From the NCBI GenBank assembly GCA_003225075.1, contig QIAP01000041.1, forward strand, positions 1 to 64,000: a stretch of DNA of 64,000 nt. Reading direction: 5' to 3'. A model generated the notes under the pieces. That model worked only from the letters and a program-made list of their open reading frames with translations. It did no database searches and was not told the DNA's origin. A program made the position numbers and the translations under genes. This DNA comes from Acidobacteriota bacterium. Lineage in GTDB: Bacteria; Acidobacteriota; Terriglobia; Terriglobales; Acidobacteriaceae. This document shows positions 8,491-31,861 of the stretch, piece after piece (the first letter of the stretch is position 1; every line of letters begins with the position of its first letter).

Positions 8491-9732
8491 TCAGCGAGCG
8501 GTTACTGCTACTGGGGAGTTTTGTAAATTCGACTTGGTGACAACGTCGTCGAGAATCGCAGCGAGCCTGTTCGCTACCTGCGCCCAACTGTAGTTCTGTT
8601 CTACCAGCTGGCGTGCGGCTAAGCCTATTCGCGTGCGCCGCTCGGAGTCGCGCAGCAGGGTGATCACAGCATCGGCAAATTTTGAAGGATCATCGGCCAA
8701 CAGCAAATGTTCGGAGTCACGCACCGGCAGACCTTCTGACCCGATTGAAGTGGAAACCACGGGTTTGGCCATGGCCATGGCTTCGAAAATCTTCAAGCGC
8801 GTGCCGCCGCCGATGCGCAAAGGCACGATGCAAATCGAACCCCGCGCCATGAATGGACGAATATCTTCCACCCACCCCGTGAGCTCGATGTTGGTTTCCG
8901 TAGCGGCAAGCTGCTGCAAACGAGGAGAAGGTTTACGTCCTACAACGCAGAGAGAAACGCCTGGTACCTGCTGCCGAATGAGCGGAAGAATTTCTTTTAC
9001 GAAATAGAAAATAGCATCTTCATTGGGTAGCCAATCCATGGAACCGGTAAACACCAGCGAATGGGGAGCCGCAGGTTCCGGGTTGGGTTTGAAATACTCC
9101 ACATCCACGCCGGTCGGGATCACAGTGATCTTCGAAGGATCGAGGAACCTCAAAAACTCGTCGCGGTCATTGTCCGAAACGGCTAGCACATGATCGGCTT
9201 TTTGCAGATATCTTCTTTCCGCCGCGGCCATTGTCTTCCATTCTCGCCACGAAAGTGCCTTCCAGAGTGGGTTTCGCGCCACCTCGTAATGTCGCCGCCA
9301 GATCATGGCTTCCACGTTATGAGTGAACAATATTTTGGGGCAGGGCCAATCCCAGGGAATCACCCCAACGGGCATGATGAAATCACAGACGATGACATCG
9401 TAAGTTTCCTGCGCAAGCAGGTGTTGCAGCGCTCGACGGACTTGCGGTCGGCAAAACTTTGTAATGTTGTAAGGCTCCCGCGAGAATAGGCGAACGCTGT
9501 AATCGTATAATTCGCCGAAACTCTTGGCGGCCGGGAGATCGAGTGGAAGGCAGACTACCTGCTGAAAGATAGTCTTCAATTGGGGATGGATGTCATTGGG
9601 ATGAGCTGGATAAAAAGAAAACAAGGTGATTGAATGATTGCGGGCCAGCTCGCGAAGAATGTTGTAGCTCCGGATCTTGCCGCCGCTGTCGGTGGGAACC
9701 AGGCCTCCCGCCTTGACCCAGAGAATTTTCAT
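8491..9732 (-). CDS. GT4-family glycosyltransferase
   Basis: 413 residues with the GT-B fold: an N-terminal acceptor half (MKILWVKAGGLVPTDSGGKIRSYN) and a C-terminal nucleotide-sugar half with VIPTGVDVEYF, LVFTGSMDW-PNEDAI, RIGGGTRLKIFEAMAMAKPVVST and SEGLPV. This is the sugar-transferase type 1,4 subclass often seen in cell-surface polysaccharide loci. Donor and acceptor cannot be deduced. It lies 12 bases downstream of the GDP-mannose dehydrogenase gene on the same strand, so the two are co-transcribed and a uronic-acid acceptor or donor is plausible. Confidence 0.93.
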   Translation of the reverse strand: MKILWVKAGGLVPTDSGGKIRSYNILRELARNHSITLFSFYPAHPNDIHPQLKTIFQQVVCLPLDLPAAKSFGELYDYSVRLFSREPYNITKFCRPQVRRALQHLLAQETYDVIVCDFIMPVGVIPWDWPCPKILFTHNVEAMIWRRHYEVARNPLWKALSWREWKTMAAAERRYLQKADHVLAVSDNDRDEFLRFLDPSKITVIPTGVDVEYFKPNPEPAAPHSLVFTGSMDWLPNEDAIFYFVKEILPLIRQQVPGVSLCVVGRKPSPRLQQLAATETNIELTGWVEDIRPFMARGSICIVPLRIGGGTRLKIFEAMAMAKPVVSTSIGSEGLPVRDSEHLLLADDPSKFADAVITLLRDSERRTRIGLAARQLVEQNYSWAQVANRLAAILDDVVTKSNLQNSPVAVTAR

Positions 9733-9744
9733 GGCCGCGGCCGC

Positions 9745-11067
9745 TTACCAGCAGATCCCTTCATACTTGATTGGCCCTTGGAGACGGCGAGTTTTCTCGA
9801 GATTAACGAGGTCGATCACCAGCTGATCAGGACGCAGGTTGCTGAGCGATGCTTTGTTCAGGTCGCGAGTGGCGATGACCACCACCTCGGCGTTAACGAG
9901 GACTTCCTCCAGCGTCGGACAAAGTAAGGAGCCGATATGAGGAATGACTTCTTCAATATATTGACGGTTAGAGCCGATCAAACGACCGAGGGCAACGTTA
10001 TCGTCCCAAATCTGAATCTGGCGTCCTTCGCCGATAAGGCGCTTGGCCAACTGTACTTGCGGACTCTCACGAAGATCGTCAGTCGCAGCCTTGAAGCTGA
10101 GACCAAGTATCCCAATTTTCTTCTTGCCGGTTCGTAGAACCATTTCCACGGCGCGCTCCAGGTGCTCTTCATTGCTTGGCAGCAAAGACTCGAAGAGAGG
10201 CAGCTTGAGGTCAAGTTCCTTGGCCCGATAGTTGAGGGCGCGAACATCTTTAGGCAGGCAGGAGCCGCCAAAAGCAAACCCCGGTTTGAGGTAGCTGGCG
10301 GAGATGTTGAGCTTGGTGTCGGCAGTAAAAATCTCGACGACGGATTCCGCGTCGACAGCAAGCTCCTTAGCCAAGGTGCCAACCTCATTGGCGAAGGCGA
10401 CTTTTACAGCGTGCCACGCATTGCAAACGTATTTCACCATTTCAGCAGACCGGAAAGAGGTCTCAAAAATGCGGCCCGGCGCCCAGGAGTAGAGTTCCCG
10501 CAGGACGCGGCTGTGAGCGGGATCGGCGGCGCCCAGAATGGTAATCGCCGGCTGCAGAAAATCGGCAACGGCAGTTCCTTCGCGCATGAACTCGGGATTC
10601 ACGCAGACGCCGAAATCTGTGCCCATGCGCTTGTCGCTAGCGTTTTCGAGAGTTGGGATCACAATTGATTCCGCCGTCCCCGGCAGCACAGTGCTGCGCA
10701 GTACAACCAAGTGAAAAGTTTTTTTCTTTTTCAGCGCGGCCCCGATTTGACGGCACACCGGTTCGATATGGCCCAGATCGAGCTTGCCATTGCGGAGACT
10801 CGGCGTACCAACACATAAAAAGGAAATTTCAGTCTTGAGGACTGCCGCCTCTGCATCCGTAGTAGCGTGCAATCGGCATGCCTTGTGACAATCAGCAAAT
10901 AACTCGCTGACTCGTGGCTCGACGATTGGGCTATGGCCCGCTTCCATTGCCTCCACTTTAGAGGAGCTCAGATCTACGCCAAGGACGTGATTCCCCTTGT
11001 GCGCGAGACATGCCGCGGTGACCGCGCCGACGTAACCCAGGCCGAAAACGCTAACTGAACCCTTCAT
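9745..11067 (-). CDS. algD: UDP-glucose/GDP-mannose dehydrogenase family, AlgD-like
   Basis: Cytosolic NAD-dependent four-electron dehydrogenase that oxidises a nucleotide hexose to the uronic acid. The Rossmann motif VFGLGYVG lies at the start, followed by LCVGTPS--NGKLDLGHIE, NPEFMREGTAV and the catalytic-Cys motif FGGSCLPKDVRAL, then the C-terminal domain with GLSFKA-TDDLRESP. The spelling of the Cys motif and of the NGKLDLGHIE stretch is closer to GDP-mannose 6-dehydrogenase (AlgD) than to UDP-glucose dehydrogenase, so GDP-mannuronate is the favoured product, but substrate assignment is inference. An upstream GTG (11100) would add 11 residues; ATG 11067 puts the Rossmann strand at the usual place. 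It leads a two-gene operon and is divergent from the glycosyltransferase-heparinase fusion. Confidence 0.9.
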   Translation of the reverse strand: MKGSVSVFGLGYVGAVTAACLAHKGNHVLGVDLSSSKVEAMEAGHSPIVEPRVSELFADCHKACRLHATTDAEAAVLKTEISFLCVGTPSLRNGKLDLGHIEPVCRQIGAALKKKKTFHLVVLRSTVLPGTAESIVIPTLENASDKRMGTDFGVCVNPEFMREGTAVADFLQPAITILGAADPAHSRVLRELYSWAPGRIFETSFRSAEMVKYVCNAWHAVKVAFANEVGTLAKELAVDAESVVEIFTADTKLNISASYLKPGFAFGGSCLPKDVRALNYRAKELDLKLPLFESLLPSNEEHLERAVEMVLRTGKKKIGILGLSFKAATDDLRESPQVQLAKRLIGEGRQIQIWDDNVALGRLIGSNRQYIEEVIPHIGSLLCPTLEEVLVNAEVVVIATRDLNKASLSNLRPDQLVIDLVNLEKTRRLQGPIKYEGICW

Positions 11068-11286
11068 ACGAACGCCTAATCCTCGATCACTGCGCGCCAC
11101 CTGATTGGTGCTGGCTCATGGAAGAGCCTTCATTCAGGTCTCATTTTCAATAATTTAGATCGGCTGCCTGAATATGAAGAATCATTCCTCGCGAGACTGC
11201 TTGAGCACCGGGGTGCACACGCGAAGGAGGTTTCCTCCCGAATAGAGGAAAATAACAGGTAGTATTTAAACTGTCGAGCTTGCTTT

Positions 11287-11339: not shown

Positions 11340-14300
11340 ATGACCGTCACCCCCTCAAATCAGGAGTTTGCAATCACCCACCAGGCCGATCCACAGGGAC
11401 CAGGGACCGCGGCGCTTCCGCAGGCAAGGCCGGAGGCATTCCAGCGGCGAAAGGTTTTTTTCCTGGTGGACTCATTCAATGTGGGGGGTACTGAAAGCCA
11501 GGCTGTGGAATTAGCGCGACGTATGGATCCGGCTGCGTACGACCTGACGGTGGGTTGTCTGAAGAAGGAAGGGCCACTACTGGATCGGCTGCAGAAGTCT
11601 TCGATTCAGGTAATCGAATTTTATCCCCAGGGCGGTATCGATTCGATCGGCGGTGCGCGGGAGATGTTACGGCTCGCTGCTTTTTTAAGAAGGGAACGTT
11701 TCGAGGTTGTGCACACTCACGATCTGTGGTCGAACCTGCTGGGTGTGCCGGCGGCACGAATGGCTCGCGTTCCGGTGATTGTCTCCAGCCGGCGCGACCT
11801 GTCGCAATTCGCCTGGTACAAAACAAGCCGCCGCGTATGGTTGCGTCGCATACAGAATCTGTCGAACATTGTGCTGGCCAATGCAAACTCCATCCGCGAG
11901 GGCTTGATTGCAGAGGACGGATTCGCGCCAGAAAAAATACGAGTCATCCGCAACGGCGTAGAAACGGAAGCAATTCAGACGACGGCGCGAGACCGCGAAC
12001 GCCTATTCCCGGGAATCGGTAACAGCAAGCTGGTGGTGCTGGTTGGAAATATGCATTCTGACGTAAAGGGCCACCCTTGGCTCATCGAGGCAGCTCAAAC
12101 TGTGGTTCGGGAATTTCCGTCAACCCGGTTTGTACTTGTGGGGGATGGCCAGGACAGAAAGAAATGCGAAAATCAGGTAGCCAACTTGGGATTGCGGCAG
12201 AATTTCCTTTTTCTCGGCCGCCGCAAGGATGTTCCTGAGATTCTTGCGTGCTGCGACGTTGCCGTACTGCCCTCGCGGGCTGAGGGTTTACCGAACGCTG
12301 TGCTCGAGTATCTCGCGAGCGGGTTGCCCACGGTGGCCACTGAGATCGGCGGGATCACCGAAATCATTCAGGATGGAAACACGGGTGTGCTGGTTCCGCC
12401 GGAGAATTCTGACGCTCTGGCCAGGGCGGTGGCGCGGCTGTTGCGTGATCCTGAACTGTCCCGAAAACTGGGCCGAAGTGGTCGGGAGTATGTTCAGCGA
12501 AATTTCAGTTTTGAGCGGCTGGTCCGCGAGGTAGATGCTCTTTATACCGAACTGCTAGAGTCGCGCGGCCATTCAAGCCGCATGAACAGTACGTCGCGCT
12601 GGTCGCAACGGCGCAACGCACTCGCGCAACGGTGGAAACATCGAATGACGCGGCTGGCCGCGATGAATCGAGATGAACTTCTCGACCGGGCGCGGCAATA
12701 CTTGTCCGCCCGCGCCGACGGGTTGCGCTTCCGGCTAGGATTAGATTTTCCATCCGAAATACATAACGGCACGACGACAAAACACCCCGGGTTCTTTTTT
12801 CGGCCTGAACAGGTGCTGTCGCTATGCGGCGTGCTCAAACAGCGCATGCCCAATCAAGTGGATCAAATTGTCCGCCAGGCTGAGCGCATCTGCCGTCATC
12901 ACTTTGATCTACTGGGCTACGAAAATATCGATTACGGGAACGAAATCGAGTGGAATTGCGATCAGGTGCACGGCAAGCGAGCTCCGGGAAAACCGTGGTT
13001 TCAGGTCCCCTATCTCAATTTTCAAGAAGTCGGCGACAGCAAGATTACCTGGGAGCTTAACCGCCACCAACATTGGGTGACGCTTGCCAAAGCCTATCGC
13101 TTGAGCGGCGACGAACGCTTCGCGAATGAAATATTCCGACAATGGCAGCACTGGCACAGCGCCAATCCCTATCCGATCGGGATAAATTGGGCCAGCAGTC
13201 TGGAGGTGGCCTTCCGCAGCCTTTCCTGGCTGTGGGTATATTTTCTGCTGGCAGATGCTCCAGTCACGCCCAGCGGCTTCCGGTCGGAGTGGTTGCGGGC
13301 ATTGGAAATCAACGGACGGCACATCGAACGGTATCTATCAACGTATTTCTCCGCCAACACTCACCTGTTGGGGGAGGGCGTAGCACTGTTTTTCATCGGA
13401 GTGCTGTGTCCAGAGCTGGCTGCTGCGGAACGATGGAAGCAACGAGGCCTGGAGGTCGTCTTGCGCGAAGCGGAGCACCAGGTGCAAGCCGACGGGCTGC
13501 ATTTTGAGCAGTCGACTTATTACCATGTGTATGCGCTTGATTTCTTCCTGCACGCGGCGATCCTGGCATCGGTCAATGAAATTCCTCTTCCTAAAAAATT
13601 CGAACTGAAGTTGGAGAAGATGCTGGATGCGCTCCTGCTGTTGAGCCGACCGGGAACACCGGCCCAGCTTGGTGACGATGATGGTGGCCGCCTTTTCGAC
13701 CCGCGCCGCAACCGGAGCGAGCACATGCTCGATCCTCTGGCCACCGGCGCTGTTCTTTTTGGCCGTGGCGATTTCAAGCTGGTTTCGGGAGGCTTGCGGG
13801 AAGAGACACTTTGGCTGCTCGGCTCGAATGGAATCGATGAGTTCGACCGGATATCGGAAAAAGTGTTAGACAACAATTCAGTTGCGCTGCCGGCTGGCGG
13901 GATCTATCTGATGACGAGTGCGGAAGCGGGGTATCAGCTCATGGTGGATGCCGGACATCACGGGGCAATTACTGGAGGCCACGGGCACGCCGACGCACTC
14001 AGCGTCTGCGTGAATTGCAAGCAGGGCCCGCTGCTCATCGATCCCGGGACATTCGAGTATGTGGGAAGCGACTCGAGCCGCGATCAGTTTCGCGGCACCG
14101 CTGCCCACAACACTTTGCAGATTGATGGGTTGAATCAGGCGGAGCCAAAAGGACCGTTCGCGTGGGTTCGATTGCCGAATGTGAAGCGAGAGCGCTGGAT
14201 CAATGGTGACCACTTCGATCTGTTTGCGGGCACTCAGGATGGATATGCACACCTGGAACATCCGGTGATTCATTGCCGATGGATATTCGGTTTGAAGTCC

Positions 14301-15056
14301 CGTTTCTGGCTGGTTCGAGATGTCGCGATGGGAAGAGGGCAGCATCGCTTGGATCTTTTCTGGCACTTGGACCCCGGTCTAAGACAGGGCCGCAACGGCA
14401 GGGAGATTTTCCACGCTGAGAATGGCGGGCAAGGATTGGGATTGCTAACTGCCCACGGGCATGATTGGTCCCAAGAAGTTTCCGAGGGCTGGTGGTCTCC
14501 CGCTTACGGGCGTAAAGAACCGGCGCCGGTTGCGCACTTTGGTACTGTGGCAGAACTGCCCACGGAGTTTGTAACTTTATTGGTTCCGGGGGTTGAGAAG
14601 GGGGAGCAGGAACTGGGTAAGATCGTGCGGATTGAAGGCAGCAGCATTGCGAAGGTCTGTGGATACCGGTATCGAACATCGTCGGAAGAAGAGCATTGCA
14701 TCGTCTTCGGGACCGCAGGTGAGCATTGGACACTAGGACCCTGGCGTAGTGATGCGGAATTTATGTATTGGGGAGTGGAACGGGACGGCCTGACTCGTAC
14801 TCTAATCTTCTGTAACGGAACTTATGTCGAGAACAGCGGGCGACGCATCGTTTCTTCAAAGCAGCGGATCACAAGGTGTGAGCTAATGGGCAAAGGCAAA
14901 GAGACGACGGTACACTCTTCAGAAAAGGAATCAATTGTGGTGCATGATTCGTTAGAGGGCATTCCGTCAGAGTTGGAAGCAGTGTCACTGGTGAGCACCT
15001 TACCCGATTCAAAGACAGGGTCGCAAGAGATGCCCTCCGGCAGGACAGGCGTTTAG
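11340..15056 (+). CDS. Fusion protein: GT4 glycosyltransferase + heparinase II/III-like lyase
   Basis: 1238 residues in one uninterrupted frame. Residues about 37-405 are a GT4 glycosyltransferase (FFLVDSFNVGGTES, HTHDLWSN, VIRNGVE, LPSRAEGLPNAVLEYLASGLPTVAT). After a basic linker of about 70 residues, residues 490-830 form an alpha-toroid as in heparinase II/III and alginate lyases (N-WASSLEVAFRSLSWLWV, STYFSANTHLLGEGVALFF, LHFEQSTYYHVYALDFF). About 870-1100 is the beta-sandwich with GGHGHADALS, LLIDPGTFEY and FRGTAAHNTLQIDG. The lyase half has the His/Tyr-rich motifs expected for activity but no signal peptide, so it would act in the cytosol or at the inner membrane face. Stop codon and next ATG are two bases apart, so asnB is translationally linked. 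A polymerising and a depolymerising domain on one chain is unusual. Confidence 0.92.
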   Translation: MTVTPSNQEFAITHQADPQGPGTAALPQARPEAFQRRKVFFLVDSFNVGGTESQAVELARRMDPAAYDLTVGCLKKEGPLLDRLQKSSIQVIEFYPQGGIDSIGGAREMLRLAAFLRRERFEVVHTHDLWSNLLGVPAARMARVPVIVSSRRDLSQFAWYKTSRRVWLRRIQNLSNIVLANANSIREGLIAEDGFAPEKIRVIRNGVETEAIQTTARDRERLFPGIGNSKLVVLVGNMHSDVKGHPWLIEAAQTVVREFPSTRFVLVGDGQDRKKCENQVANLGLRQNFLFLGRRKDVPEILACCDVAVLPSRAEGLPNAVLEYLASGLPTVATEIGGITEIIQDGNTGVLVPPENSDALARAVARLLRDPELSRKLGRSGREYVQRNFSFERLVREVDALYTELLESRGHSSRMNSTSRWSQRRNALAQRWKHRMTRLAAMNRDELLDRARQYLSARADGLRFRLGLDFPSEIHNGTTTKHPGFFFRPEQVLSLCGVLKQRMPNQVDQIVRQAERICRHHFDLLGYENIDYGNEIEWNCDQVHGKRAPGKPWFQVPYLNFQEVGDSKITWELNRHQHWVTLAKAYRLSGDERFANEIFRQWQHWHSANPYPIGINWASSLEVAFRSLSWLWVYFLLADAPVTPSGFRSEWLRALEINGRHIERYLSTYFSANTHLLGEGVALFFIGVLCPELAAAERWKQRGLEVVLREAEHQVQADGLHFEQSTYYHVYALDFFLHAAILASVNEIPLPKKFELKLEKMLDALLLLSRPGTPAQLGDDDGGRLFDPRRNRSEHMLDPLATGAVLFGRGDFKLVSGGLREETLWLLGSNGIDEFDRISEKVLDNNSVALPAGGIYLMTSAEAGYQLMVDAGHHGAITGGHGHADALSVCVNCKQGPLLIDPGTFEYVGSDSSRDQFRGTAAHNTLQIDGLNQAEPKGPFAWVRLPNVKRERWINGDHFDLFAGTQDGYAHLEHPVIHCRWIFGLKSRFWLVRDVAMGRGQHRLDLFWHLDPGLRQGRNGREIFHAENGGQGLGLLTAHGHDWSQEVSEGWWSPAYGRKEPAPVAHFGTVAELPTEFVTLLVPGVEKGEQELGKIVRIEGSSIAKVCGYRYRTSSEEEHCIVFGTAGEHWTLGPWRSDAEFMYWGVERDGLTRTLIFCNGTYVENSGRRIVSSKQRITRCELMGKGKETTVHSSEKESIVVHDSLEGIPSELEAVSLVSTLPDSKTGSQEMPSGRTGV

Positions 15057-15058
15057 AC

Positions 15059-17026
15059 ATGTGCGGGATCTGCGGAATCTTACATACCGATCCTCAGCAG
15101 CGGGCAGAGCGCAGCACGCTGGCCAGGATGAACCAGCAGATCGTGCATCGGGGACCTGATGACGATGGTTTCTTTGTGGAAGGGAATGTTGGCCTGGCCA
15201 TGCGCCGGCTGAGCATCGTCGATCTCAAGACTGGGCATCAGCCGATTTCGAATGAAGACGCGAATATCTGGATTGTCTTCAACGGCGAGATCTACAACCA
15301 TGGACAGTTGCGAGTTGATCTGGAAAATCGCGGTCACCGCTATCGTACGAAGAGCGACACTGAAACCATCATCCACTTGTATGAGGAATACGGCGCCGAC
15401 TGTGTTAAGTATTTGCGCGGCATGTTTGCTTTTGCCATTTGGGATGCGCGAAAGCGGCGCCTCTTTGTGGCTCGCGATCGCCTCGGTATCAAACCTCTCT
15501 ACTACTACTGGAACGGCAAAACATTTCTCTTCGGCTCGGAGATCAAGACCATCCTGACATATTTCGGGATGAAGGCTGAGTTCAACCAGAGCGTACTGGC
15601 GGAGTATTTGGCCTTCGGCTACATCGCAGGCCCGCACACAATGTTCAGCGGCATTCAAAAGCTCCTACCTGCCCACACCTTGCAACTTGACGAGAATGGC
15701 GAACCAGAAATCAACTCCTACTGGGACCTCTCCGTTGCCGCGGATAGCGGTGGTCGTCCCCAAACTTACTACGTAAGAACTTATCGCGAAATGCTGGAAG
15801 AATGTGTTTCCAGCCACTTGATGAGCGACGTCCCGCTGGGCGTATTTCTCAGCGGCGGACTGGATTCGAGCGCGGTTGCCGCCCTGACTACGAAGATTCG
15901 TCGCGCGCCGATTGAGACATTCTCGGTCGGGTATGGCGAAGAAGCCTACAGCGAACTTCCTTATGCGCGACAGGTCGCGCAGCATTTGGGATCGAGGCAT
16001 CACGAAATACGAATGCGCCGCGAGGAATTTTTTGATGCGCTTCCCAGGTTGATCTGGCACGAGGATGAGCCGATCGTGTGGCCATCAAGTGTCTCACTTT
16101 ATTTCGTGGCACGGCTGGCACGCGAGCGCGTCACTGTAGTGTTAACCGGCGAAGGCAGTGACGAGACCCTGGGCGGATACACAAGATATGCGTGGACGAT
16201 GATGAATTCGCGCATGGATCGAGCCTATCGCACGCTCACGCCGGATAGGCTGCGGAAATTGGTGCGGCAGGGAATCAATGCAGGTCCGCTGGGGGCAACG
16301 GCGCGCCGCAAATTAGGCCATACTTTTCTGGGACGGGACGGAGTATCGTGGTCGTCCTTCTACTTCGATAACTTCTACTCGGCCTTCAGCGGCGCGGAGC
16401 AGGACGAGCTGCTGACGGAGGACGCTAAGAGCACCGCGGGCGACGCGTATTCCGGTTCCATGGAATACTGGGAATCATCTTCTGGCGATTTATTGCACCG
16501 GCTGCTCTACACCGACATCAAGACCTATCTCGTGGAGCTGCTGATGAAGCAGGACCAGATGAGCATGGCGGCATCCATTGAGAGCCGTGTGCCTTTTCTG
16601 GATCACGTTTTGCTCGAGTTTGCGGCCAGGATTCCCACGCAATTTTCCATCAAGGGACAGGCGGGGAAATGCATTCTCAAGTCCGCCGTGAAAGACCTGT
16701 TGCCGAAATCGATTATCGACCGGAAGAAAGCAGGATTCCCGACCCCATGGGCATACTGGTTGGAAGGACCACAACTCGGAGATCTCGAACGAATTCTGCT
16801 GGAGCCACGAAGCCTGGAACGAGGGCTGTTCAAGCCGGAAGTAATGAAGCGTCTGTTTGCGGAACATCGCGCCGGGCGCGCTGATCATGGCAATCGCATC
16901 TGGCGGCTGCTGAATCTTGAGCTTTGGCAGCGCGTCTTCATTGACGGTGAAATGCCCGCGCAAGAGCGAGAGTTACAGCAGAACCTGGTTTCTGTGGCGG
17001 CCCCTCCTGTGGTTCCGGGAGCTTGA
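15059..17026 (+). CDS. asnB: Asparagine synthase (glutamine-hydrolysing) type amidotransferase
   Basis: 655 residues. The class II glutaminase domain begins MCGICGI with the nucleophile Cys2 and continues with HRGPDD, RLSIVDL-TGHQPI and NGEIYN. The synthetase domain carries the ATP pyrophosphatase loop SGGLDSSAVAAL (about residue 264) and GEGSDE-LGGY. Length and order match AsnB and also the amidotransferases found in exosortase-associated polysaccharide loci. Given its place between a polymer-processing fusion and a deacetylase, amidation of a uronic acid or another glycan acid is at least as likely as free asparagine synthesis; that is inference. It is in one operon with the flanking genes. 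Confidence 0.92.
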   Translation: MCGICGILHTDPQQRAERSTLARMNQQIVHRGPDDDGFFVEGNVGLAMRRLSIVDLKTGHQPISNEDANIWIVFNGEIYNHGQLRVDLENRGHRYRTKSDTETIIHLYEEYGADCVKYLRGMFAFAIWDARKRRLFVARDRLGIKPLYYYWNGKTFLFGSEIKTILTYFGMKAEFNQSVLAEYLAFGYIAGPHTMFSGIQKLLPAHTLQLDENGEPEINSYWDLSVAADSGGRPQTYYVRTYREMLEECVSSHLMSDVPLGVFLSGGLDSSAVAALTTKIRRAPIETFSVGYGEEAYSELPYARQVAQHLGSRHHEIRMRREEFFDALPRLIWHEDEPIVWPSSVSLYFVARLARERVTVVLTGEGSDETLGGYTRYAWTMMNSRMDRAYRTLTPDRLRKLVRQGINAGPLGATARRKLGHTFLGRDGVSWSSFYFDNFYSAFSGAEQDELLTEDAKSTAGDAYSGSMEYWESSSGDLLHRLLYTDIKTYLVELLMKQDQMSMAASIESRVPFLDHVLLEFAARIPTQFSIKGQAGKCILKSAVKDLLPKSIIDRKKAGFPTPWAYWLEGPQLGDLERILLEPRSLERGLFKPEVMKRLFAEHRAGRADHGNRIWRLLNLELWQRVFIDGEMPAQERELQQNLVSVAAPPVVPGA

Positions 17027-17093
17027 GTCTGAGCGAGACAACGGCCGACAATTATTCGGAACAAACAATCCGAGCCTGCATTCCAAACCAATA

Positions 17094-18152
17094 ATGCTAA
17101 GGGTAATCAAGCGCACAGCCTTGCACATGATCAAAGCCGCGGGGGTATTCGGGCTGGTTCGTGACAGCGAGTGGCGCCAAAGACGGCTTTTGATTCTTTG
17201 CTATCACGGTATTTCACAGCAGGATGAACACCTGTGGCGGCCGGCTTTGTACCTTGAGCCGAAGACGCTTGAGCAACGGCTCAAGATGCTCAAGGATGGC
17301 GGCTATGCTGTCCTGCCTTTCGGAGAGGCAGTTCACCGGCTCTATGAAAACGATTTGCCGCCACGCAGTGTTGCCATCACGTTCGACGATGGGACGTATG
17401 ATTTCTATAAGCATGGATATCCTCTTCTGAAAAGCTATGGCTTCCCAGTCACGGTATACCAGACCACCTACTACACAGACTATTCCCGCCCAATCTTTAA
17501 TTTGATTTGTTCTTACATGCTGTGGAAACGGCGGGGAAGCATAGTGGATGCAGGAAAAGAATTGGGACTAGATTCGCCACTTGATCTGACGACCTCACAC
17601 AGTCGTTTTCTGGTGGAACGCCAACTGGTTCAGAATGCTCTTCGCGACAATTTGGATGGGAAGAAGAAAGATGAGATTGCCGCTGGTCTCGCGAAACTTC
17701 TCAATATTGATTACTACGAATTGGTGAGTAGACGCATGCTCCAGCTCATGAATCCAACGGAAGTGGCTGAACTGGCGACCCAGGGAGTCGATTTCGAGCT
17801 TCATACTCATCGCCACCGTACTCCTCAAGATGAGTTATTGTTTCGCAAAGAAATCAGTGACAATCGAAAACGTATTCAGGAAATAACAGGATCTATTGCT
17901 CTACACTTCTGCTATCCGAGTGGTGTCTACGCCGTGCCGTTTCTTGATTGGCTCAAAGCGGAGCGCGTGATCTCCGCGACAACCTGTGATGCTGGCCTCG
18001 CAACGGCGCAAACCGAGAAACTGTTATTGCCGCGAGTCGTGGATGTTTCCGGCCGAACTCCGATTGAGTTCGAAAGCTGGCTGACGGGCGCGGGTTCGCT
18101 GCTGGCGTTCCGCCGGAAGGCTGCACAGAAATATGCTCCGCCCACCGACTAA
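17094..18152 (+). CDS. Polysaccharide deacetylase family protein (first copy)
   Basis: About 352 residues from ATG 17094; longer in-frame starts read into the end of asnB in another frame and look artefactual. NodB-type deacetylase: LCYHGIS, the metal- and base-carrying TFDDGTYDF (near residue 98), then FELHTHRHRT supplying the His metal ligands, and HFCYPSG. There is no signal peptide. Family members remove N- or O-acetyl groups from polysaccharides. An insertion of about 100 residues separates the TFDDG and HTH motifs, as in the polysaccharide deacetylases of exosortase/EPS loci. It is the last gene of the plus-strand operon starting at 11340 and converges on the cysQ-like gene with ten bases between. 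Confidence 0.9.
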   Translation: MLRVIKRTALHMIKAAGVFGLVRDSEWRQRRLLILCYHGISQQDEHLWRPALYLEPKTLEQRLKMLKDGGYAVLPFGEAVHRLYENDLPPRSVAITFDDGTYDFYKHGYPLLKSYGFPVTVYQTTYYTDYSRPIFNLICSYMLWKRRGSIVDAGKELGLDSPLDLTTSHSRFLVERQLVQNALRDNLDGKKKDEIAAGLAKLLNIDYYELVSRRMLQLMNPTEVAELATQGVDFELHTHRHRTPQDELLFRKEISDNRKRIQEITGSIALHFCYPSGVYAVPFLDWLKAERVISATTCDAGLATAQTEKLLLPRVVDVSGRTPIEFESWLTGAGSLLAFRRKAAQKYAPPTD

Positions 18153-18162
18153 GTGCGAGCTG

Positions 18163-18972
18163 CTAGGAGCGGCGGGCGCTCTCTGGCAGGTGGTTATTTA
18201 CCAATGCAACCAATGCACCCTGAAGATGAGGCCCGCAAGCCAATAAACCGGAGAGCAGTGGAGATTTATTGTTACACCGCAGTGGGGTATCGTCCAATGT
18301 GCGCACCACTCCGCCAGCACTCAGTACCAGCGCCGCACCGGCAGCAACGTCCCATTCATTTTTCGGCGTCAGGGTGAAGGTGGCATCGGCCAATCCTGCC
18401 GACACAAGAGCAAGCTTGTATGCAACCGAACCCATCGGTTTGATTTTGAAGGCGGTGTCAGTGAACTGCCGCCATTCACCGCGCTTTACTTCGCTGCGGC
18501 TGGCGAGCACCAGGGCGCCATCGAGGGTTTTCTTCTGGCTGGGCTGTGCCCGATTGCCGTTGTACGTAACCCCATTTTCTAACGAGCCAATAAAAATCTC
18601 GTTGGTTGCGGGATTGCAAATTCCGCCAGCCACGGGACAGCCATTCTCCACCATCGCAATCGATACGCAAAACTCAGGAATTCCCGCAACAAATTCGCGG
18701 GTGCCATCCAGCGGATCGACTACCCAAACTCTGTTCTTGGAGAGACGCGAGGCGTCATCCACACTTTCTTCTGAGAGCCAGCCCTCGCCATCCCGCAACA
18801 GGTGTTCACGGAGAACTGCGTCAACCTGGCGGTCAGCCTCGGTGACCGGGTCATGCCCAATTTTGTACTCGATCTCGATAGCACCGGGGGTAAAGCGGCT
18901 GAGAACCTTGCGCGCAGCCTCCAAACCCGCATGGATGCGTTGCAGTGTTTCCGAGTTTGAGGAACGATTCAT
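18163..18972 (-). CDS. cysQ: 3'(2'),5'-bisphosphate nucleotidase, inositol monophosphatase family
   Basis: 269 residues of the Li+-sensitive phosphatase superfamily. Visible are DPVTEADRQVD, LSEESVDD, the metal centre WVVDPLDGTREFVAG and the C-terminal NEWDVAAGAALVLSAGG. The order and the REF-type continuation fit the CysQ branch, which hydrolyses the PAP left after sulfation; inositol-phosphate activity remains possible. It follows the TauE-type permease and Sat-CysC genes on the same strand, which strongly favours the PAP role. Cytosolic. PAP removal is needed when PAPS-dependent sulfotransferases run, and two of these are encoded a few kb away. Confidence 0.88.
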   Translation of the reverse strand: MNRSSNSETLQRIHAGLEAARKVLSRFTPGAIEIEYKIGHDPVTEADRQVDAVLREHLLRDGEGWLSEESVDDASRLSKNRVWVVDPLDGTREFVAGIPEFCVSIAMVENGCPVAGGICNPATNEIFIGSLENGVTYNGNRAQPSQKKTLDGALVLASRSEVKRGEWRQFTDTAFKIKPMGSVAYKLALVSAGLADATFTLTPKNEWDVAAGAALVLSAGGVVRTLDDTPLRCNNKSPLLSGLLACGPHLQGALVALVNNHLPESARRS

Positions 18973-19000
18973 GATGTCCTTAAGAAAAGTTTTGTTCCAG

Positions 19001-19771
19001 TCAAGCCCAAAGCATCCTGGCGCCGGTAGCCAGAAGCACAGTGCAGAGAATGCGACGAAGCCAGAGTACCGGGACCCGCGTGCTCAGATGAGAACCCAAC
19101 AATCCGCCGGGAATCGATCCAATCAGCAAAGCCCCGACCAGCTTGGGATCAACGTTTCCCAGGCGGAAATGCAAAAAACTGGTAACCCCGGTCAATATGA
19201 TTGCATGAACAATGTCAGTGCCCACCATTACCTTCGGCGGAAAACTATAAAAAAGTAACAATAACATCATGATGATGCTGCCGGAACCTACAGAGGTCAT
19301 GCCCACCAGGAAGCCCGCCAGAAGCCCAATGATGGCCATCCCCAAGAATGATTTCATGGTTGGAGGGCGGTTGGTGACACGGTCTTCGATGCGTTGCTGA
19401 AACAGTAGCAGTGTGGGAATGCAGACCAGTAAGAGCCCGACGGCCGACTTGATGAAGTCGTTGACCCCGGTTCCATAAATTGTCCGCAAATGAGTAAGAA
19501 AGCCAACCCCAGCGATCGAGCCAGGAATGCTGCCCACCGCAAGCGCCAGCACCACTTTGCGGCGGACAGTACCTTTGCTCAGGTGCAGCCAACCCGCGCC
19601 AATCTTCGTGACGAAATTGAACAAAGCATCGGATCCGACCGCCATGATGGCCGGCACCTTAAGAACGAAAATGAGCAGCGGCAACAGGAGCACACCGCCG
19701 CCCAGTCCGGTGAGGCCGATGAGGGTGCCTACCAGAAATCCGATCAAGATCTTGAGTGTTATTGCAGGCAT
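19001..19771 (-). CDS. TauE/SafE-type sulfite/anion permease
   Basis: 256 residues with about eight hydrophobic helices in two homologous halves. The first half shows GFLVGTLIGLTGLGGGVLLLPLL, the second GFLVGMTSVGSGSIIMMLLLLF, the duplicated Gly-rich motif of the former DUF81 family. Members move sulfite, sulfoacetate or other organic sulfur anions across the inner membrane; direction and substrate are not evident. It sits between Sat-CysC and the CysQ-like gene, so a role in sulfate or sulfite handling for PAPS synthesis is likely. The start ATG gives a normal family length. Confidence 0.88.
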   Translation of the reverse strand: MPAITLKILIGFLVGTLIGLTGLGGGVLLLPLLIFVLKVPAIMAVGSDALFNFVTKIGAGWLHLSKGTVRRKVVLALAVGSIPGSIAGVGFLTHLRTIYGTGVNDFIKSAVGLLLVCIPTLLLFQQRIEDRVTNRPPTMKSFLGMAIIGLLAGFLVGMTSVGSGSIIMMLLLLFYSFPPKVMVGTDIVHAIILTGVTSFLHFRLGNVDPKLVGALLIGSIPGGLLGSHLSTRVPVLWLRRILCTVLLATGARMLWA

Positions 19772-19886
19772 GAAAGACGCGCCGTAGCCTTAATCCCGAA
19801 GCTCATGGTCCTGTCGCCGCAGCCCAGCGTCAGCATAGTCTCGATCCACGACGGACAAATGGAAGGCCGTCGCCAGATGTCGTCCG

Positions 19887-21632
19887 CTATTTCCCCTGTC
19901 CATTTACCCCGATAAAGCCCTGTTGTTCAAGGTGAAGAATAATTTCCTGAGCGGCCTCCTCAGGCGACAGGTCGGCGGTGTTGATCACCACTTCCGCGTC
20001 TGCCGGAGTTTCGTAGGGGTCGGAAATACCAGTGAATTCCTTGACGATTCCCGCCCGCGCCTTGGCATACAGTCCTTTACGGTCGCGTTGCTCACAGACC
20101 TCCAGGGGGGTAGCGATATGAACCAGGACGAAGCCGCCGAAGGGCTCGATCATCTGACGCACCGCCTTGCGGACCGCATTATAGGGAGCGATGGGGGCGC
20201 AGATGGCGATGCCGCCGTTCTTGGTAATCTCCGAGGCGACATAGCCGATGCGGCGGATATTGATGTCGCGATGCTCCTTGGAAAAACCCAGCTCTGACGA
20301 TAAGTGTTTGCGGACAAGGTCGCCATCAAGCAACGTAACTGGGCGCCCGCCGGTCTCCAAGAACTTGGTGAGCAGCACATTGGCGATGGTCGATTTGCCC
20401 GATCCTGAAAGCCCGGTGAAGAAAATGGTTACCCCCTGCTTGTGCCGTGGCGGATAGCTACGGCGCAGTTCTTGAACCACTTCGGGATAAGTGAACCAGC
20501 TTGGGATTTCGCGGCCTTCATTCAAGCGCTGGCGCAAATCGGTGCCCGAAAGGTTAAGAACGCGTGCGCCCTTCGGTACTTCGTTGTCGGGCACATACTG
20601 ATCCTGATCCTCGAGGTACACCATCATGTTGAAAGGCACCATAGCGACGCCGATATCCGCTTCGTGCTTGCGGAAAAGTTCCTGAGCTTCGTAAGGGCCG
20701 TAAAACGGTTTGCCGTCACTGTCGTTGCCCGGGCCAGCGTGATCGCGTCCCACGATCTGATGGGTGCAACCATGGTTCTTGCGGATGATTCCGTGCCAGA
20801 TTGCTTCGCGCGGCCCTCCCATACGCATGGCCAGCGGAAGCATGGCAAGCTTCACTGTTCCTGGCGGGTACTTCGAGAGCAGCAACTGATAGCAGCGGAC
20901 GCGGGTGTAATAGTCCACGTCGCCGGGTTTGGTCATGCCGACGGAGGGATGCAGCAGCAGATTCGCCTCCACCTGCTTGGCAGCGCGGAAGGTCAGCTCC
21001 TGGTGAGCGCGGTGCATGGGATTGCGAGTCTGGAATGCCACCACGCGACGCCAGCCTAAGCGCGCAAACTCCGCTCGCAATTCGGCCGGTGTCAGACGCA
21101 ATGCGCGGAAATCATAGTGCGAAGGCATTTGCACGCCTTCGACTCGGCCACCTACATACCAGGGATTGCCTTTATTCAGCACATAATCCACGCCGGGGTG
21201 AACCATGCTGGTGGTACCAAAGACCGCCTTGGCTTCCGCCTTGCGGTCGGGTTGCCACACATCCTCGACGTGCAGGACGGCGAGCATCACGCCTTCGGGA
21301 TCGCGCAGCGCAATCTTGCTGGTGCCTGGGGTCAGCTTTTTGGCGAATTCTTCGCTGACATCGAGATTGATGGGCATTGGCCAAAGGGTATTGTTGGCGA
21401 GCCGCATCTTGTGGCAGACGCCCTCGTAATCAGCACGCGTCATAAATCCGTGCAGCGGTGAAAACCCGCCGCTGATGAGAAGTTCCAGATCGCAAAGTTG
21501 GCGTGGGGTAAGGTCCCACGAAGGCCACTCGCGTGAGTGCGCTTTAAGTTCCGCGCTGCGTTCGGCAGGGGCTATAAGATTTACTAGTTCATTACCGTGT
21601 GGTGCAATCAGATGGCTGGTTGAAGCGATCAA
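19887..21632 (-). CDS. sat-cysC: Bifunctional sulfate adenylyltransferase / APS kinase (PAPS synthase)
   Basis: About 581 residues from a TTG start. The N-terminal ATP sulfurylase part shows QTRNPMHRAHQELT (the nucleotide-binding HxxH-type motif), GRDHAGPG and NLSGTDLRQRL. The C-terminal APS kinase part shows FTGLSGSGKST (Walker A), DGDLVRKHLSSELGFS and HRDINIRRIGYVA. Together these turn sulfate and ATP into PAPS in the cytosol. A longer frame exists upstream from an ATG near 21764, but TTG 21632 is preceded at nine bases by AGGAGG and gives the normal length of such fusions, so I prefer it. It heads a minus-strand group with TauE and CysQ genes. There is no CysH or sulfite reductase nearby, so PAPS seems meant for sulfation. 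Confidence 0.92.
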   Translation of the reverse strand: MIASTSHLIAPHGNELVNLIAPAERSAELKAHSREWPSWDLTPRQLCDLELLISGGFSPLHGFMTRADYEGVCHKMRLANNTLWPMPINLDVSEEFAKKLTPGTSKIALRDPEGVMLAVLHVEDVWQPDRKAEAKAVFGTTSMVHPGVDYVLNKGNPWYVGGRVEGVQMPSHYDFRALRLTPAELRAEFARLGWRRVVAFQTRNPMHRAHQELTFRAAKQVEANLLLHPSVGMTKPGDVDYYTRVRCYQLLLSKYPPGTVKLAMLPLAMRMGGPREAIWHGIIRKNHGCTHQIVGRDHAGPGNDSDGKPFYGPYEAQELFRKHEADIGVAMVPFNMMVYLEDQDQYVPDNEVPKGARVLNLSGTDLRQRLNEGREIPSWFTYPEVVQELRRSYPPRHKQGVTIFFTGLSGSGKSTIANVLLTKFLETGGRPVTLLDGDLVRKHLSSELGFSKEHRDINIRRIGYVASEITKNGGIAICAPIAPYNAVRKAVRQMIEPFGGFVLVHIATPLEVCEQRDRKGLYAKARAGIVKEFTGISDPYETPADAEVVINTADLSPEEAAQEIILHLEQQGFIGVNGQGK

Positions 21633-21641
21633 ATCCGTGAA

Positions 21642-21647
21642 CCTCCT
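21642..21647 (-). promoter_or_regulatory. Ribosome binding site that decides the TTG start of sat-cysC
   Basis: AGGAGG on the minus strand, nine bases before TTG 21632. No comparable site precedes the upstream ATG. Confidence 0.6.
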
Positions 21648-22125
21648 GGGTTCGGTTGTGTTCCAGACTTCTATTTTTGCCTGGATAAATTCCAGACGAT
21701 ACGAATGGTTTAACTTGCAGAACTGAGGGGAAGGCGTTTTTTCCTGCCAAAGTGCTGCTTCCAACGCCGGCGAACAGAATTTTGCTTGGTTGGACTGCGT
21801 TAAGTCAAATGGACTGCAATTCAGATACCTTCAGAGGAGTTCGCGTTCGAGTTATCGTGCTAAGAACTAAGGATTTGTAGATTTTATCATCGCCTGGCGT
21901 TGTGCAGGTGAGACCAGGTGAAAAAGTTTGCGTTAAAGTTGGTCGGATTGCCTCGAGGGGGGTTAACGGATGATGCCAATTTTTGCAACTCAGCACGGGC
22001 GGTACCAAGATGACACTCGGTTGTGGATGTCACCAGAGACCAGTTCCTCCCATAGTATTCTGGATTGGAAGTAAGGTGGCCGCGGGATGCCGGTTCCGAC
22101 TCAGTGCCAGGTTACTGAATAATTG
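21648..22125. other. Divergent intergenic region between sat-cysC and the second deacetylase
   Basis: About 480 bases that must hold promoters in both directions. Part could be read as an N-terminal extension of sat-cysC but has no similarity to the family. I see no RNA gene or clear operator. Confidence 0.5.
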
Positions 22126-23118
22126 ATGCTTAAAAATTGGATGCAACGGGGCTTAGTCGGTAGCGGGGTCACACGGTTGGCAGGACGGCTGGCAGGACCA
22201 GGAGTCGCCATCCTTATGTATCACTCGGTGATGGACGATCCGTTGCAAGCCGCCAGCACTCTAGGCGGTATCGTCCATTCGACGAAGGTTTTTCGCGAGC
22301 AAATGGAACTGATTGCTCGCGATTACAATACCCTGACTTTGGCTGATGTTTTGCTTTTTGTGCAAGGGGAAAAGGAACCTCCGACCCGGTCGGTGGCAAT
22401 TACCTTTGACGATGGGTACGCTGACAACTTCGAAGTCGCTATGCCGGTGCTCGATCAAACTGGCGTACCCGCCGCTTTCTACGTGGTGGTGGACTGTGTC
22501 GAAAACGCGAGACTGCCCTGGCCTGCGCGACTGCGTTATGCGTTCTACACCACAAAGAAGAGCACTTGGGCGGAATCGAATGGAACTCTCTGGCCGTTGA
22601 AGAGTTTCGAGCAGCGGGACGGCGCCTTTCTGAAGGCCTGCGATGACTGTTGCCAACTGGCGGGCGCAAGGCAGGAACAATTCGTGAGCGGGATCGAGCG
22701 TGACCTGGATGCGGAGTTTCGCTCTGCCGAGAACCCCATGATGACCTGGGACCAACTGTGCGGACTCACACGAAGGGGTCATATCTTGGGTTCGCATACC
22801 ATGACACATCCCAACATGGCGTACCTGCCCGACGCAGATTTACAAATTGAGTTTGCTGAATCGAAGCGCAGTTTGGAAGAACGTCTAAACTCGCCGATAG
22901 ATCATTTTTCCTATCCGTGTCCAGCGCTCTCTCCGCACTGGCGCGATCGAACGGTCGAAGCGAGTGCTCAAGCCAAGTACCGTACTGCCGTGACCACGAA
23001 TGGAGGTCCAGTTCGCAGGAACCATAATCCACTCTGCCTGCGTCGTGTGCGTCCCACGAAAGACATTGAGGGGCTACGGTGGAATCTGGAATGCACATTC
23101 CTGGGGCGCTCGGTATGA
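22126..23118 (+). CDS. Polysaccharide deacetylase family protein (second copy)
   Basis: About 330 residues from ATG 22126 (TTG 22123 is adjacent). NodB-type motifs: ILMYHSV, TFDDGYADNFE, LGSHTMTHPNMAYL with the two His metal ligands, and FSYPCPALS. A long insert lies between the TFDDG and SHTMTH motifs. It has no signal peptide. Sequence and insert differ clearly from the deacetylase at 17094, so this is not a recent duplicate. The stop overlaps the next start (ATGA at 23115-23118), so it is translationally coupled to the FemAB-like gene. Deacetylase-FemAB pairs are typical of EPS loci associated with exosortase systems. Confidence 0.9.
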   Translation: MLKNWMQRGLVGSGVTRLAGRLAGPGVAILMYHSVMDDPLQAASTLGGIVHSTKVFREQMELIARDYNTLTLADVLLFVQGEKEPPTRSVAITFDDGYADNFEVAMPVLDQTGVPAAFYVVVDCVENARLPWPARLRYAFYTTKKSTWAESNGTLWPLKSFEQRDGAFLKACDDCCQLAGARQEQFVSGIERDLDAEFRSAENPMMTWDQLCGLTRRGHILGSHTMTHPNMAYLPDADLQIEFAESKRSLEERLNSPIDHFSYPCPALSPHWRDRTVEASAQAKYRTAVTTNGGPVRRNHNPLCLRRVRPTKDIEGLRWNLECTFLGRSV

Positions 23119-24434
23119 AGGGTGAGGTGCCCGAGCTAACGGTTCGTGTGTATCACGATCTCGATGTTTTGCGGACCTTGGTTCCTGCCTGGGATGAGTT
23201 GTTGTCTGTATATCCCACAGCAACCATGTTTTGTAGCTGGGAATGGCTTTCTTCATGGTGGCGAGCGTTTGGCGGAGCGCGTCAACTGCTGGTACTGGCG
23301 TTTTACGATCGATCCCCAAACAATCAGGGCAAGCTGATTGGGCTGGCTCCTTTATCCGTAGAACGGCATCGCATCGCAGGCCCAGCCTGCTTGCGGAAGA
23401 TTCGCCTGATGGGAGACGGCAGCGGTGATTCGGACAATCTGGACATGCCGGTTCGGCCTGGTTGGGAAAAGCAGTTTGCAGTCGCGCTTCATCGATATCT
23501 TAGCGATCAGAAGAGCCTCTGGGATTTTTGCGAGCTGAATACGTTGCCGGCTGATTCTCCCGGCGCGGAAAGCCTTCGCCGATACTTGCAGACTCAGCGG
23601 TGGCATGTATTGCAGTATCAACGGGTCGCGTCAGCGATTGCTTTACCCGACAACTGGGAAGGATATCTTCGTCAGCTTTCGAGCGAAGATCAGAAGAACC
23701 TCAGCCGCTACGCACGGCGGTTGGAGAAGCGTTATCAGACGCGCATCTATCGCTGCACACAGGAGAGCGAGTTAGCTGCGGTTCTCGAAGCACTATTCCA
23801 ATTGCATCAGGAGCGCTGGCAGGCTGCCGGGGAAGCGGGCAGCTTTGCATCTGAGGAGCGCAGACGCTTTTACTATGACTTGAGTCGTTTGCTTCTGGCG
23901 CGGAGCAGTCTGGAACTATGGGCGCTGGAACTGAATGGGAGGATTGCCGCGGTGCAGTACGCCTTTCGCTACGGGAAGACGGTGTTTCAGCTTCAGGAAG
24001 GCTTTGATCCAGAGCGTTCGTCGGACCGCGTCGGTTTCGTACTGCGGGGACACGTGATGAAGCAACTTATCGAGGAAGGCGTACGAAAATATGACTTTCT
24101 TGCGGTCGAGCCTGGCTATAAGGCGCGCTGGTCAGCCCAAGTGGGGCATTATGTGAATTGTCATTTCGCCCGGCCGCTCACTTTAGGAAGTGGATATCTG
24201 AGTGCCGTACACAACGCAAGAGCGGGGAAGGAATGGCTGCGAGGGAATGTTCCAGAATCGATCTGGAATTTGCTGCATAGAGTGAACGTCGGGGTGCGAG
24301 GTAAATCGTCCCGGGAGGTGGAGCCCAAGATAGCTGAACCAGAGGCCTCATCACCGCAAACCGCTCAGTCGAATCCGATCAAGCAAGCCGAGGGTGGGAA
24401 GATAGCGGTGGATGTCGACAAGCAGTCGCGTTGA
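23115..24434 (+). CDS. GNAT-fold FemAB/CelD-like acyltransferase
   Basis: About 439 residues from ATG 23115, which overlaps the preceding stop in an ATGA; a start at 23079 would read back into the deacetylase gene. The fold is recognisable from FCSWEWLSSWWRAFGG in the N-terminal half and, in the C-terminal GNAT half, LELWALELNGRIAAVQYAF, KTVFQLQEGFDPE and G-VLRGHVMKQLIEEG--KYDFLAVEPGYKARW. This is the Acetyltransf_6 (CelD/BcsL) group, related to the FemAB-family proteins of EPS/PEP-CTERM loci. It likely transfers an acyl or aminoacyl group to a glycan or lipid carrier; the substrate is unknown. The tail of about 50 residues is polar and low in complexity. Confidence 0.85.
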   Translation: MKGEVPELTVRVYHDLDVLRTLVPAWDELLSVYPTATMFCSWEWLSSWWRAFGGARQLLVLAFYDRSPNNQGKLIGLAPLSVERHRIAGPACLRKIRLMGDGSGDSDNLDMPVRPGWEKQFAVALHRYLSDQKSLWDFCELNTLPADSPGAESLRRYLQTQRWHVLQYQRVASAIALPDNWEGYLRQLSSEDQKNLSRYARRLEKRYQTRIYRCTQESELAAVLEALFQLHQERWQAAGEAGSFASEERRRFYYDLSRLLLARSSLELWALELNGRIAAVQYAFRYGKTVFQLQEGFDPERSSDRVGFVLRGHVMKQLIEEGVRKYDFLAVEPGYKARWSAQVGHYVNCHFARPLTLGSGYLSAVHNARAGKEWLRGNVPESIWNLLHRVNVGVRGKSSREVEPKIAEPEASSPQTAQSNPIKQAEGGKIAVDVDKQSR

Positions 24435-24441
24435 TATATTT

Positions 24442-25320
24442 CTACCCGCCGGAGCGGACAGTTTCATCTTGTTGCGAAGATAGCGCGGCCTGTTCTGTAC
24501 TCAGCTTGTACCCAAGATTTTGCATGGCGGCACCCCAGGGAGACTCAATTTCAGCCACTGATCTGGGTGAAAGTTCAGACTTCCATCCGCCAGCGGAGGC
24601 CGCGCGCACAAATGGTTTGTCCTGACGAGTGCTTCTGGTCAACGCCCAATGATGAGATTGGCGCTTTTCCAAAGCCCTCATATGGTCCGCGGAACTCAGT
24701 TCGACCGCTGTTCGCAGCCTTTCGGGGGTTGCTTCGAGATCTAAGAGTGAAGCCACCCTGGCCAGTTCAAGTTCGGTTCGGGCAAGCATATCCTCGTAGC
24801 GCAATAGCACGAAATTTCGCTGACCTTCTCGCATTGCCGTCCAACTTCTCACGTGATCGATCCATGAGGCGGCCCACCCCCATTGAATGTCGAACTCTGC
24901 CGCAATAAAGCGAGGAACAAATTTCTCGATGGGATAGTCCTGGGAAATGCTTTTGCGCTTAATCGCATAGTGATAATAGGAGACGGCCACGTCGCGTGGA
25001 TCGCGGACGATATAGATGATGCGCTGGTAGCGTGGGTCGAAAGACTCGTGACTCTTGAGAATGCGTGGGCGATCGAGAGCGCGCAAAACCCGATCAGGAA
25101 ACAGATAGATTTCGGGGATGCGCGATTCGACATTCGCGAACGTAATGGGGTCGTCCTGATAAACAAGGTTTCCGATCAGGAAGCGGGCCCAGGTGTTACC
25201 TGATCTGGGATACGACACGATGAATATGTCGTCAGGAAAAACTGTAAGCGCCCGCCCGGCAGGCTTCTTGCCAAGCAAAATCCGCCAAGCTTCTCCCAGT
25301 GCTCGAAACATCCTCGGCAT
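24442..25320 (-). CDS. PAPS-dependent sulfotransferase (distal copy)
   Basis: About 292 residues. The Sulfotransfer_1 fold is shown by the PAPS 5'-phosphosulfate loop SYPRSGNTWARFL, the 3'-phosphate site YIVRDPRDVAVSYYHYAIK, LLRYEDML and a C-terminal TRSTRQDKPFVR--GGWKSELSP where the RKG-type motif normally lies. Cytosolic; it moves sulfate from PAPS to a hydroxyl or amine of an unknown acceptor. The start ATG 25320 shares its first base with the upstream ATP-grasp stop (TGATG), so it is translationally coupled. It is clearly a paralogue of the gene at 26655 and is the last gene of the NRPS operon; it converges on the FemAB-like gene. Confidence 0.92.
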   Translation of the reverse strand: MPRMFRALGEAWRILLGKKPAGRALTVFPDDIFIVSYPRSGNTWARFLIGNLVYQDDPITFANVESRIPEIYLFPDRVLRALDRPRILKSHESFDPRYQRIIYIVRDPRDVAVSYYHYAIKRKSISQDYPIEKFVPRFIAAEFDIQWGWAASWIDHVRSWTAMREGQRNFVLLRYEDMLARTELELARVASLLDLEATPERLRTAVELSSADHMRALEKRQSHHWALTRSTRQDKPFVRAASAGGWKSELSPRSVAEIESPWGAAMQNLGYKLSTEQAALSSQQDETVRSGG

Positions 25321-26651: not shown

Positions 26652-26654
26652 TAT

Positions 26655-31858: not shown

Positions 31859-31861
31859 GGG

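Follow-up and report, generated by a model that had tools for sequence, protein, structure and literature searches.

The 64,000-nucleotide window analyzed here (positions 1 to 64,000 of contig QIAP01000041.1, assembly GCA_003225075.1, from a soil bacterium of the Acidobacteriaceae, Acidobacteriota) encodes, at 11340-15056 of its forward strand, a real frame of 1238 residues in which a family 4 glycosyltransferase (GT4) is joined to a heparinase II/III-like protein (the lyase-like half), with both domains apparently intact. We consider it probable that this gene is the fusion of two neighboring, translationally coupled exopolysaccharide genes, in which the GT4 half adds a sugar and the lyase-fold half modifies a uronic acid on the same cytosolic glycan. 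Both parts are known kinds of enzymes, while their combination appears to be new; neither the combination nor the biosynthetic setting was found in the open-access literature searched.

A single frame with two domains

The initial annotation placed a GT4 and a lyase domain on one uninterrupted polypeptide, and this description holds. Frame 0 contains no stops, compared with 41 and 38 in the other two forward frames, and Pfam profiles match both parts: Glyco_transf_4 at residues 48-210 (2.8e-21, 76.7 bits against a cut-off of 28.5), Glyco_trans_1_4 at residues 230-370 (1.7e-41, 142.2 bits against 27), Hepar_II_III_N (8.7e-37, 127.7 bits against 22), and Hepar_II_III_C (6.1e-40, 137.7 bits against 24). 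The gene and its parts are as follows.

11340-15056, forward: fused gene, GT4 plus heparinase II/III-like, 1238 amino acids (aa), ATG start, TAG stop
11448-12557, forward: GT4 domain, residues 37-406, with EX7E at 12282-12308
12558-12668, forward: junction and linker, residues 407-443, with model confidence low at 410-423
12879-13655, forward: Hepar_II_III_N (Pfam), residues 514-772, the toroid
13875-14525, forward: Hepar_II_III_C (Pfam), residues 846-1062, the beta-sandwich, containing H881, H883, D901, Y907, and H923

With its profiles over cut-off and a two-domain glycosyltransferase fold, the GT4 half belongs to the GT4 superfamily. The spacing of E315 and E323 fits the EX7E motif of GT4 enzymes, and the nearest solved structures are HepE and BshA (Z about 40), with HepE (4xsp) reaching Z 41.2 over 355 residues. 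Membership in narrower NCBIfam families was not reached, as the best match of the GT4 half (residues 37-406), TIGR03088, scored 213.4 bits against a cut-off of 409.05, and NF045573 (HepC heparin-sulfate lyase, polysaccharide lyase family PL12) scored 115.8 bits against 700. An AlphaFold2 model spanning residues 34-1216 contains the GT4 fold, an (alpha/alpha) toroid, and a beta-sandwich, joined by a linker that is of low confidence at model residues 377-390, which are residues 410-423 of the fusion. Modelled alone, the lyase-like half reached a mean predicted local distance difference test score of 78.9 and a predicted TM-score (pTM) of 0.84.

Fused, adjacent, and separate genes in relatives

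A junction-spanning query, run on 398 genomes of the family, matched 82 at 1e-30, in rows that include GT4-only matches. The two parts form one frame without a stop in three genomes (G000, that of the window, G580, and G712), share a frame with a single TAG between them in two (G568 and G051), and are separate but directly adjacent in eight, as counted from the rows (G056, G082, G106, G709, G689, G177, G142, and G700). Across 200 family genomes, the lyase-like half is mostly a separate frame of about 800 aa; in six relatives, the GT4 gene ends directly before the lyase-like gene, its stop codon abutting or overlapping the start codon that follows. A family-wide fused architecture is therefore rejected, given the separate genes of most relatives. 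The initial annotation had regarded separate genes in all close relatives as telling against its reading, and this is nearly, yet not quite, what a search for the architecture returned: most relatives keep the genes separate, but three of the 398 are fused, by at least two changes (see below).

Among named loci (80 kept of the 280 found), the GT4 gene lies directly upstream of the lyase-like gene in eight, two of which are fused: L066 (QIAL01000236.1) and L074 (JAIQFH010000001.1), each with its architecture confirmed by Pfam. Judging by frame length (1205 and 1210), these may be the contigs of G712 and G580.

Beyond the family, a Pfam search for Hepar_II_III_N across 396 Acidobacteriota genomes, 90 of which had a match, revealed no further fusion among the long frames checked. 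Besides the window, seven frames of more than 1000 aa surrounded this domain (G217:C85, G529:C172, G316:C141, G514:C49, G397:C108, G529:C77, and G354:C49). Four candidates (L143, L144, L145, and L148) were rejected as fusions since Pfam finds no second domain, the extra N-terminus being an open frame without a domain; the remaining three contain no open reading frame (ORF) of at least 900 aa (L146 and L147) or one of 903 aa (L149). Also rejected were G177 and G091, whose open frames of 1568 and 1563 aa measured 916 and 802 in other searches, and the long N-terminal stretches of L073, L091, L093, and L133, read by eye, look non-coding. Separately, at L144:1791-3600, which belongs to a different family of the phylum, the open frame preceding a heparinase II/III gene resembles, again by eye, a glycosyltransferase in the wrong frame, and the gene order glycosyltransferase then heparinase II/III may recur in that family.

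The junction and the number of changes

The features of the junction are these.

12573-12575, forward: TCA (S412), putative site of the lost stop, a single base change away from a stop codon, where the GT4 genes of separate-gene relatives end
12582-12584, forward: in-frame ATG (M415) at which the lyase-like gene probably once began, six bases past S412 and with no evident ribosome-binding site before it
12582-12764, forward: N-terminal extension found in the lyase-like family, basic and helical, about 60 residues, ahead of the region alignable to solved lyases

In separate-gene relatives, the GT4 stop falls shortly after a YxELL motif, at the position of the window TCA, and the alignment suggests that the stop was lost at S412. 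In L066 and L074, no ATG, GTG, or TTG remains at the old lyase-like start, and the first in-frame GTG or ATG codons, further in, lack an evident ribosome-binding site, so that, on the simplest account, these two make their lyase-like part solely within the fusion.

A tree of 24 of the 84 lyase-like sequences places L066 and L074 with separate-gene relatives (support 100/99), while the window fusion stands elsewhere. A single common origin of the three fusions, for a group that had been named before this tree was built, was rejected (log-likelihood lower by 131.4, approximately unbiased test p-AU 3e-39), and FastTree trees of both halves agree with that rejection. At least two changes between the separate and the fused state must therefore have occurred, as forced by the starred branches of the tree. 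These changes could be gains, or one old gain followed by several splits, with gains being the simpler account.

One alternative is that the fusion is a neutral accident, in which the halves work as they do when apart and the tether is without consequence. Its rarity (three of 398 genomes) and the several close relatives with separate genes, some of them lying apart, fit this explanation. We nevertheless find it somewhat unlikely, as at least two changes are placed on the tree and one lineage has retained the fusion over two species under purifying selection on both halves: between L066 and L074, the ratio of nonsynonymous to synonymous substitution rates (dN/dS) is 0.08 for the glycosyltransferase, 0.35 for the linker, and 0.12 for the lyase-like part. 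Recurrent fusion indicates that the two enzymes are used together, although it says nothing of the reaction that the second one catalyzes.

The lyase-like half: active site, fold, and location

Two further features carry the comparison with characterized lyases.

13356-13364, forward: N673-T674-H675, with T674 in the alignment column of the heparinase III catalytic Asn
13521-13523, forward: Y728, aligned with the catalytic Tyr294 of heparinase III

The position of the catalytic Asn of heparinase III (N240) is Thr in all 84 relatives, with an Asn one residue earlier; judged by this alignment, the Thr is a real departure from heparinase III. Conservation is complete (84 of 84) for T674, E679, H881, H883, D901, Y907, and H923, and nearly so (83 of 84) for N673, H675, and Y728; the set includes the catalytic Tyr, the His of the beta domain, a second Tyr, and the metal ligands. 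The initial annotation had proposed aligning the Tyr, His, and Asn of the lyase active site; the Tyr and His are kept, and the Asn position is occupied by Thr. The catalytic role of Tyr294 is taken from PMC11848413, with the numbering of the heparinase III chain matched to that of the paper by our own count. H881 and Y907 are 26 residues apart, as are His444 and Tyr470, the pair given for PL33 in the same paper (PMC11848413). In the PL17 lyase 4nei, the aligned counterpart of H881, H883, D901, and H923 is the GHGH...D...AHNTL region.

By structure, the lyase-like half aligns over most of its length with lyases of families PL39, PL40, PL17, PL12, PL15, and PL21 and with dermatan sulfate epimerase 1. 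Full-length proven lyases score Z about 20 to 32 and the epimerase Z 22.9; because both fall in a like range, fold comparison cannot choose between a lyase and an epimerase.

The absence of a signal peptide, as initially annotated, is borne out by hydropathy: over the first 60 residues, the 19-residue mean peaks at 0.54, whereas three control proteins encoded in the window reach 1.55-2.16, and neither a signal peptide nor a membrane segment was seen in the fusion by this measure, no dedicated predictor having been run. The heparinase-like part should thus be cytosolic. No export signal was found by hydropathy in any of 14 lyase-like family members, the lyase half of the window included, and since the separate homologues lack one as well, the cytosolic location is independent of fusion. 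Membrane anchoring through the basic N-terminal extension was considered and found no support, its hydrophobic moment being ordinary (14% of the protein's 18-residue windows are as high).

The surrounding locus

The genes flanking the fusion include the following.

15059-17026, forward: AsnB-type amidotransferase, beginning 2 nucleotides (nt) past the fusion stop
9745-11100, reverse: divergently oriented nucleotide-sugar (UDP-glucose) dehydrogenase, supplying uronic acid
8491-9732, reverse: GT4 glycosyltransferase, near TIGR03087 but below its cut-off
16917-18152, forward: polysaccharide deacetylase-like protein (Pfam)

The AsnB-type gene is a recurrent companion, lying downstream of the lyase-like gene on the same strand and within 700 nt in 64 of 76 loci (four of the 80 were too short for this count). 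Two deacetylase-like proteins, a bifunctional ATP sulfurylase/APS kinase, and two sulfotransferases are also encoded in the window, and together with the dehydrogenase they point to a modified, uronic-acid-containing, possibly sulfated exopolysaccharide. In all 11 relatives chosen for long contigs, rather than at random, the contig of the lyase-like gene also carries an exosortase gene, about 20-35 kb away.

Several other features of this region merit description. A sulfation cassette at 18163-27605 comprises an inositol-monophosphatase-family (CysQ-like) gene, a TauE-like permease (by ORF reading), the ATP sulfurylase/APS kinase, and two Sulfotransfer_1 genes, and parts of it are syntenic in several relatives. 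At 27634-29493, an ATP-grasp domain and a low-molecular-weight tyrosine phosphatase share one 619-aa frame, near a separate ATP-grasp gene at 25320-26651. ORF reading also places a flippase-like gene at 29494-31062 and, at 31064-35929, a nonribosomal-peptide-synthetase-like gene (1355 aa) with a phosphopantetheinyl-transferase-like gene, all within the sugar cluster. Elsewhere in the genome, a second, distant heparinase II/III protein (L002, G000:C114:19542-21204) is encoded at the end of a contig that also carries another polysaccharide-export gene.

Proposed role of the fusion and its alternatives

We propose that the upstream GT4 gene lost its stop and is now read in frame into the gene of a cytosolic protein with the heparinase III/alginate-lyase fold, which would yield one soluble, probably membrane-peripheral protein. 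The GT4 half would add a sugar to a cytosolic, probably lipid-linked glycan, the heparinase-fold half would then act on a uronic-acid residue of that glycan before export, and the neighboring AsnB-type enzyme would probably amidate a carboxylate, with the tether serving to bring the glycosyltransferase and uronic-acid steps together. Here we infer that the fusion is expressed whole and that both halves are active, as well as the substrate and the order of steps. As to the chemistry, we favor epimerization or elimination, as a biosynthetic change made to uronic acid while the unit is still growing, over the degradation of a finished polymer. In our reading, the lyase-like protein is a biosynthetic enzyme that acts on uronic acid in the cytosol, belongs to an exosortase-type exopolysaccharide locus, and is tethered to a glycosyltransferase in a few lineages.

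A more specific possibility, which we regard as rather doubtful, is that the lyase-like half is a glucuronic acid C5-epimerase acting on a polymer or oligomer, like human dermatan sulfate epimerase 1, in a sulfated exopolysaccharide pathway. That enzyme (6hzn) aligns over 586 residues (Z 22.9, root-mean-square deviation 4.7), and the spacing of H881, H883, and D901 (+2, +20) equals that of its His450, His452, and Glu470, residues named in PMC8006597. The same paper proposes that small active-site changes convert a lyase into an epimerase (PMC8006597). Also in favor, the cluster encodes a UDP-sugar dehydrogenase, deacetylase-like proteins, and, for sulfation, an ATP sulfurylase/APS kinase and two sulfotransferases. 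However, proven lyases score equally or higher (PL39 Z 32.3, PL17 about 26, PL12 about 24.5), the PL17 lyase 4nei has the same His/His/acid spacing, and fold and sequence cannot tell the two activities apart.

The initial annotation had suggested length control or editing, in which the heparinase-like half would cut uronic-acid chains from the cytosolic side while they grow or when they stall. We find this unlikely, despite a fold and most catalytic residues matching those of uronic-acid lyases and a hydropathy profile without an export signal. Glycosyltransferases of this GT4 type normally transfer a single sugar, and nothing tested favors cleavage over epimerization or other uronic-acid chemistry; a length-control device that polymerizes and cleaves within one polypeptide receives no specific support. 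Further, if assembly is Wzx/Wzy-like, as the flippase-like gene would allow, no long chains would be made in the cytosol, and the Thr invariably found at the heparinase III Asn position also weighs against this reading.

Certain observations weigh against our proposal of two coupled genes fused to serve one glycan. In a genome of the same genus (G014), the GT4 gene and the best lyase-like match are on different contigs, the GT4 gene being followed by something other than the lyase-like gene, and the exosortase gene of the window's own genome lies on another contig, beside a polysaccharide-export gene. The fused AlphaFold2 model has a pTM of 0.66 and no fixed interface between the domains; with this pTM and a low-confidence linker, none can be claimed. 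The linker dN/dS rests on 38 codons and is weak evidence, the window fusion may differ from the two-gene state by a single base, and the fusion is known from assemblies, of which the named ones are nearly all metagenome bins. That an assembly or base-calling error removed a stop codon in the window is very unlikely, for although one base can separate the fused and split states and the window assembly comprises 259 contigs, two other assemblies share the architecture with a changed junction, which is no proof for the window's own copy.

The default annotation of a heparinase-fold protein is that of a degradative lyase, and this default is probably wrong for the present conserved branch, which lacks an export signal and sits in exopolysaccharide biosynthesis loci; its fusion to a glycosyltransferase more than once also names its partner enzyme. 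If uronic acid is epimerized, iduronate-like sugars would become accessible by way of a bacterial enzyme, and lyase/epimerase interconversion in this fold could be tested. A bolder hypothesis, improbable as a whole in our estimation, is that the exosortase-type loci of Acidobacteriota hold a cytosolic lyase-fold enzyme modifying uronic acids during assembly, as a bacterial functional counterpart of dermatan sulfate epimerase, that the polymer is sulfated and glycosaminoglycan-like, and that the modifier acts on the glycosyltransferase's own product, with the recurrent fusions as direct evidence for this partnership.

Comparison with known systems

Among enzymes of known structure, heparinase III of PL12 (4mmh, 5jmd, and 4fnv) is the best Protein Data Bank sequence match of the lyase-like half (profile E 1.6e-52, covering both domains), and its catalytic Tyr294 has its equivalent in Y728. 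Known heparinase III and HepC members are secreted degradative enzymes with a signal peptide. The fusion, in contrast to heparinase III, has no export signal, carries an N-terminal extension of about 60 residues, and has Thr at the Asn position, and its GHGH metal loop is closer to that of PL17. The PL17, PL15, and PL39 alginate lyases (4nei, 3a0o, and 6jp4) exhibit the same two-domain fold (Z 26.2, 22.8, and 32.3, respectively), and PL17 has the GHGHxD and AHNTL motifs in common with the fusion; identity to these three is 13-14% over aligned residues, and their entries are degradative, with no glycosyltransferase fused.

Dermatan sulfate epimerase 1 (6hzn) resembles the lyase-like half in fold, in His/His/acid spacing, and, we suggest, in serving to build up a polymer and not to break it down. 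It is itself, according to PMC8006597, a eukaryotic and N-glycosylated protein. On the glycosyltransferase side, the GT4s of exosortase loci (TIGR03088, 'stp2') provide the best NCBIfam match, although the fusion scores under the cut-off and is thus a non-member. What sets the fusion apart from these GT4s and from HepE (4xsp) alike is its fused C-terminal region.

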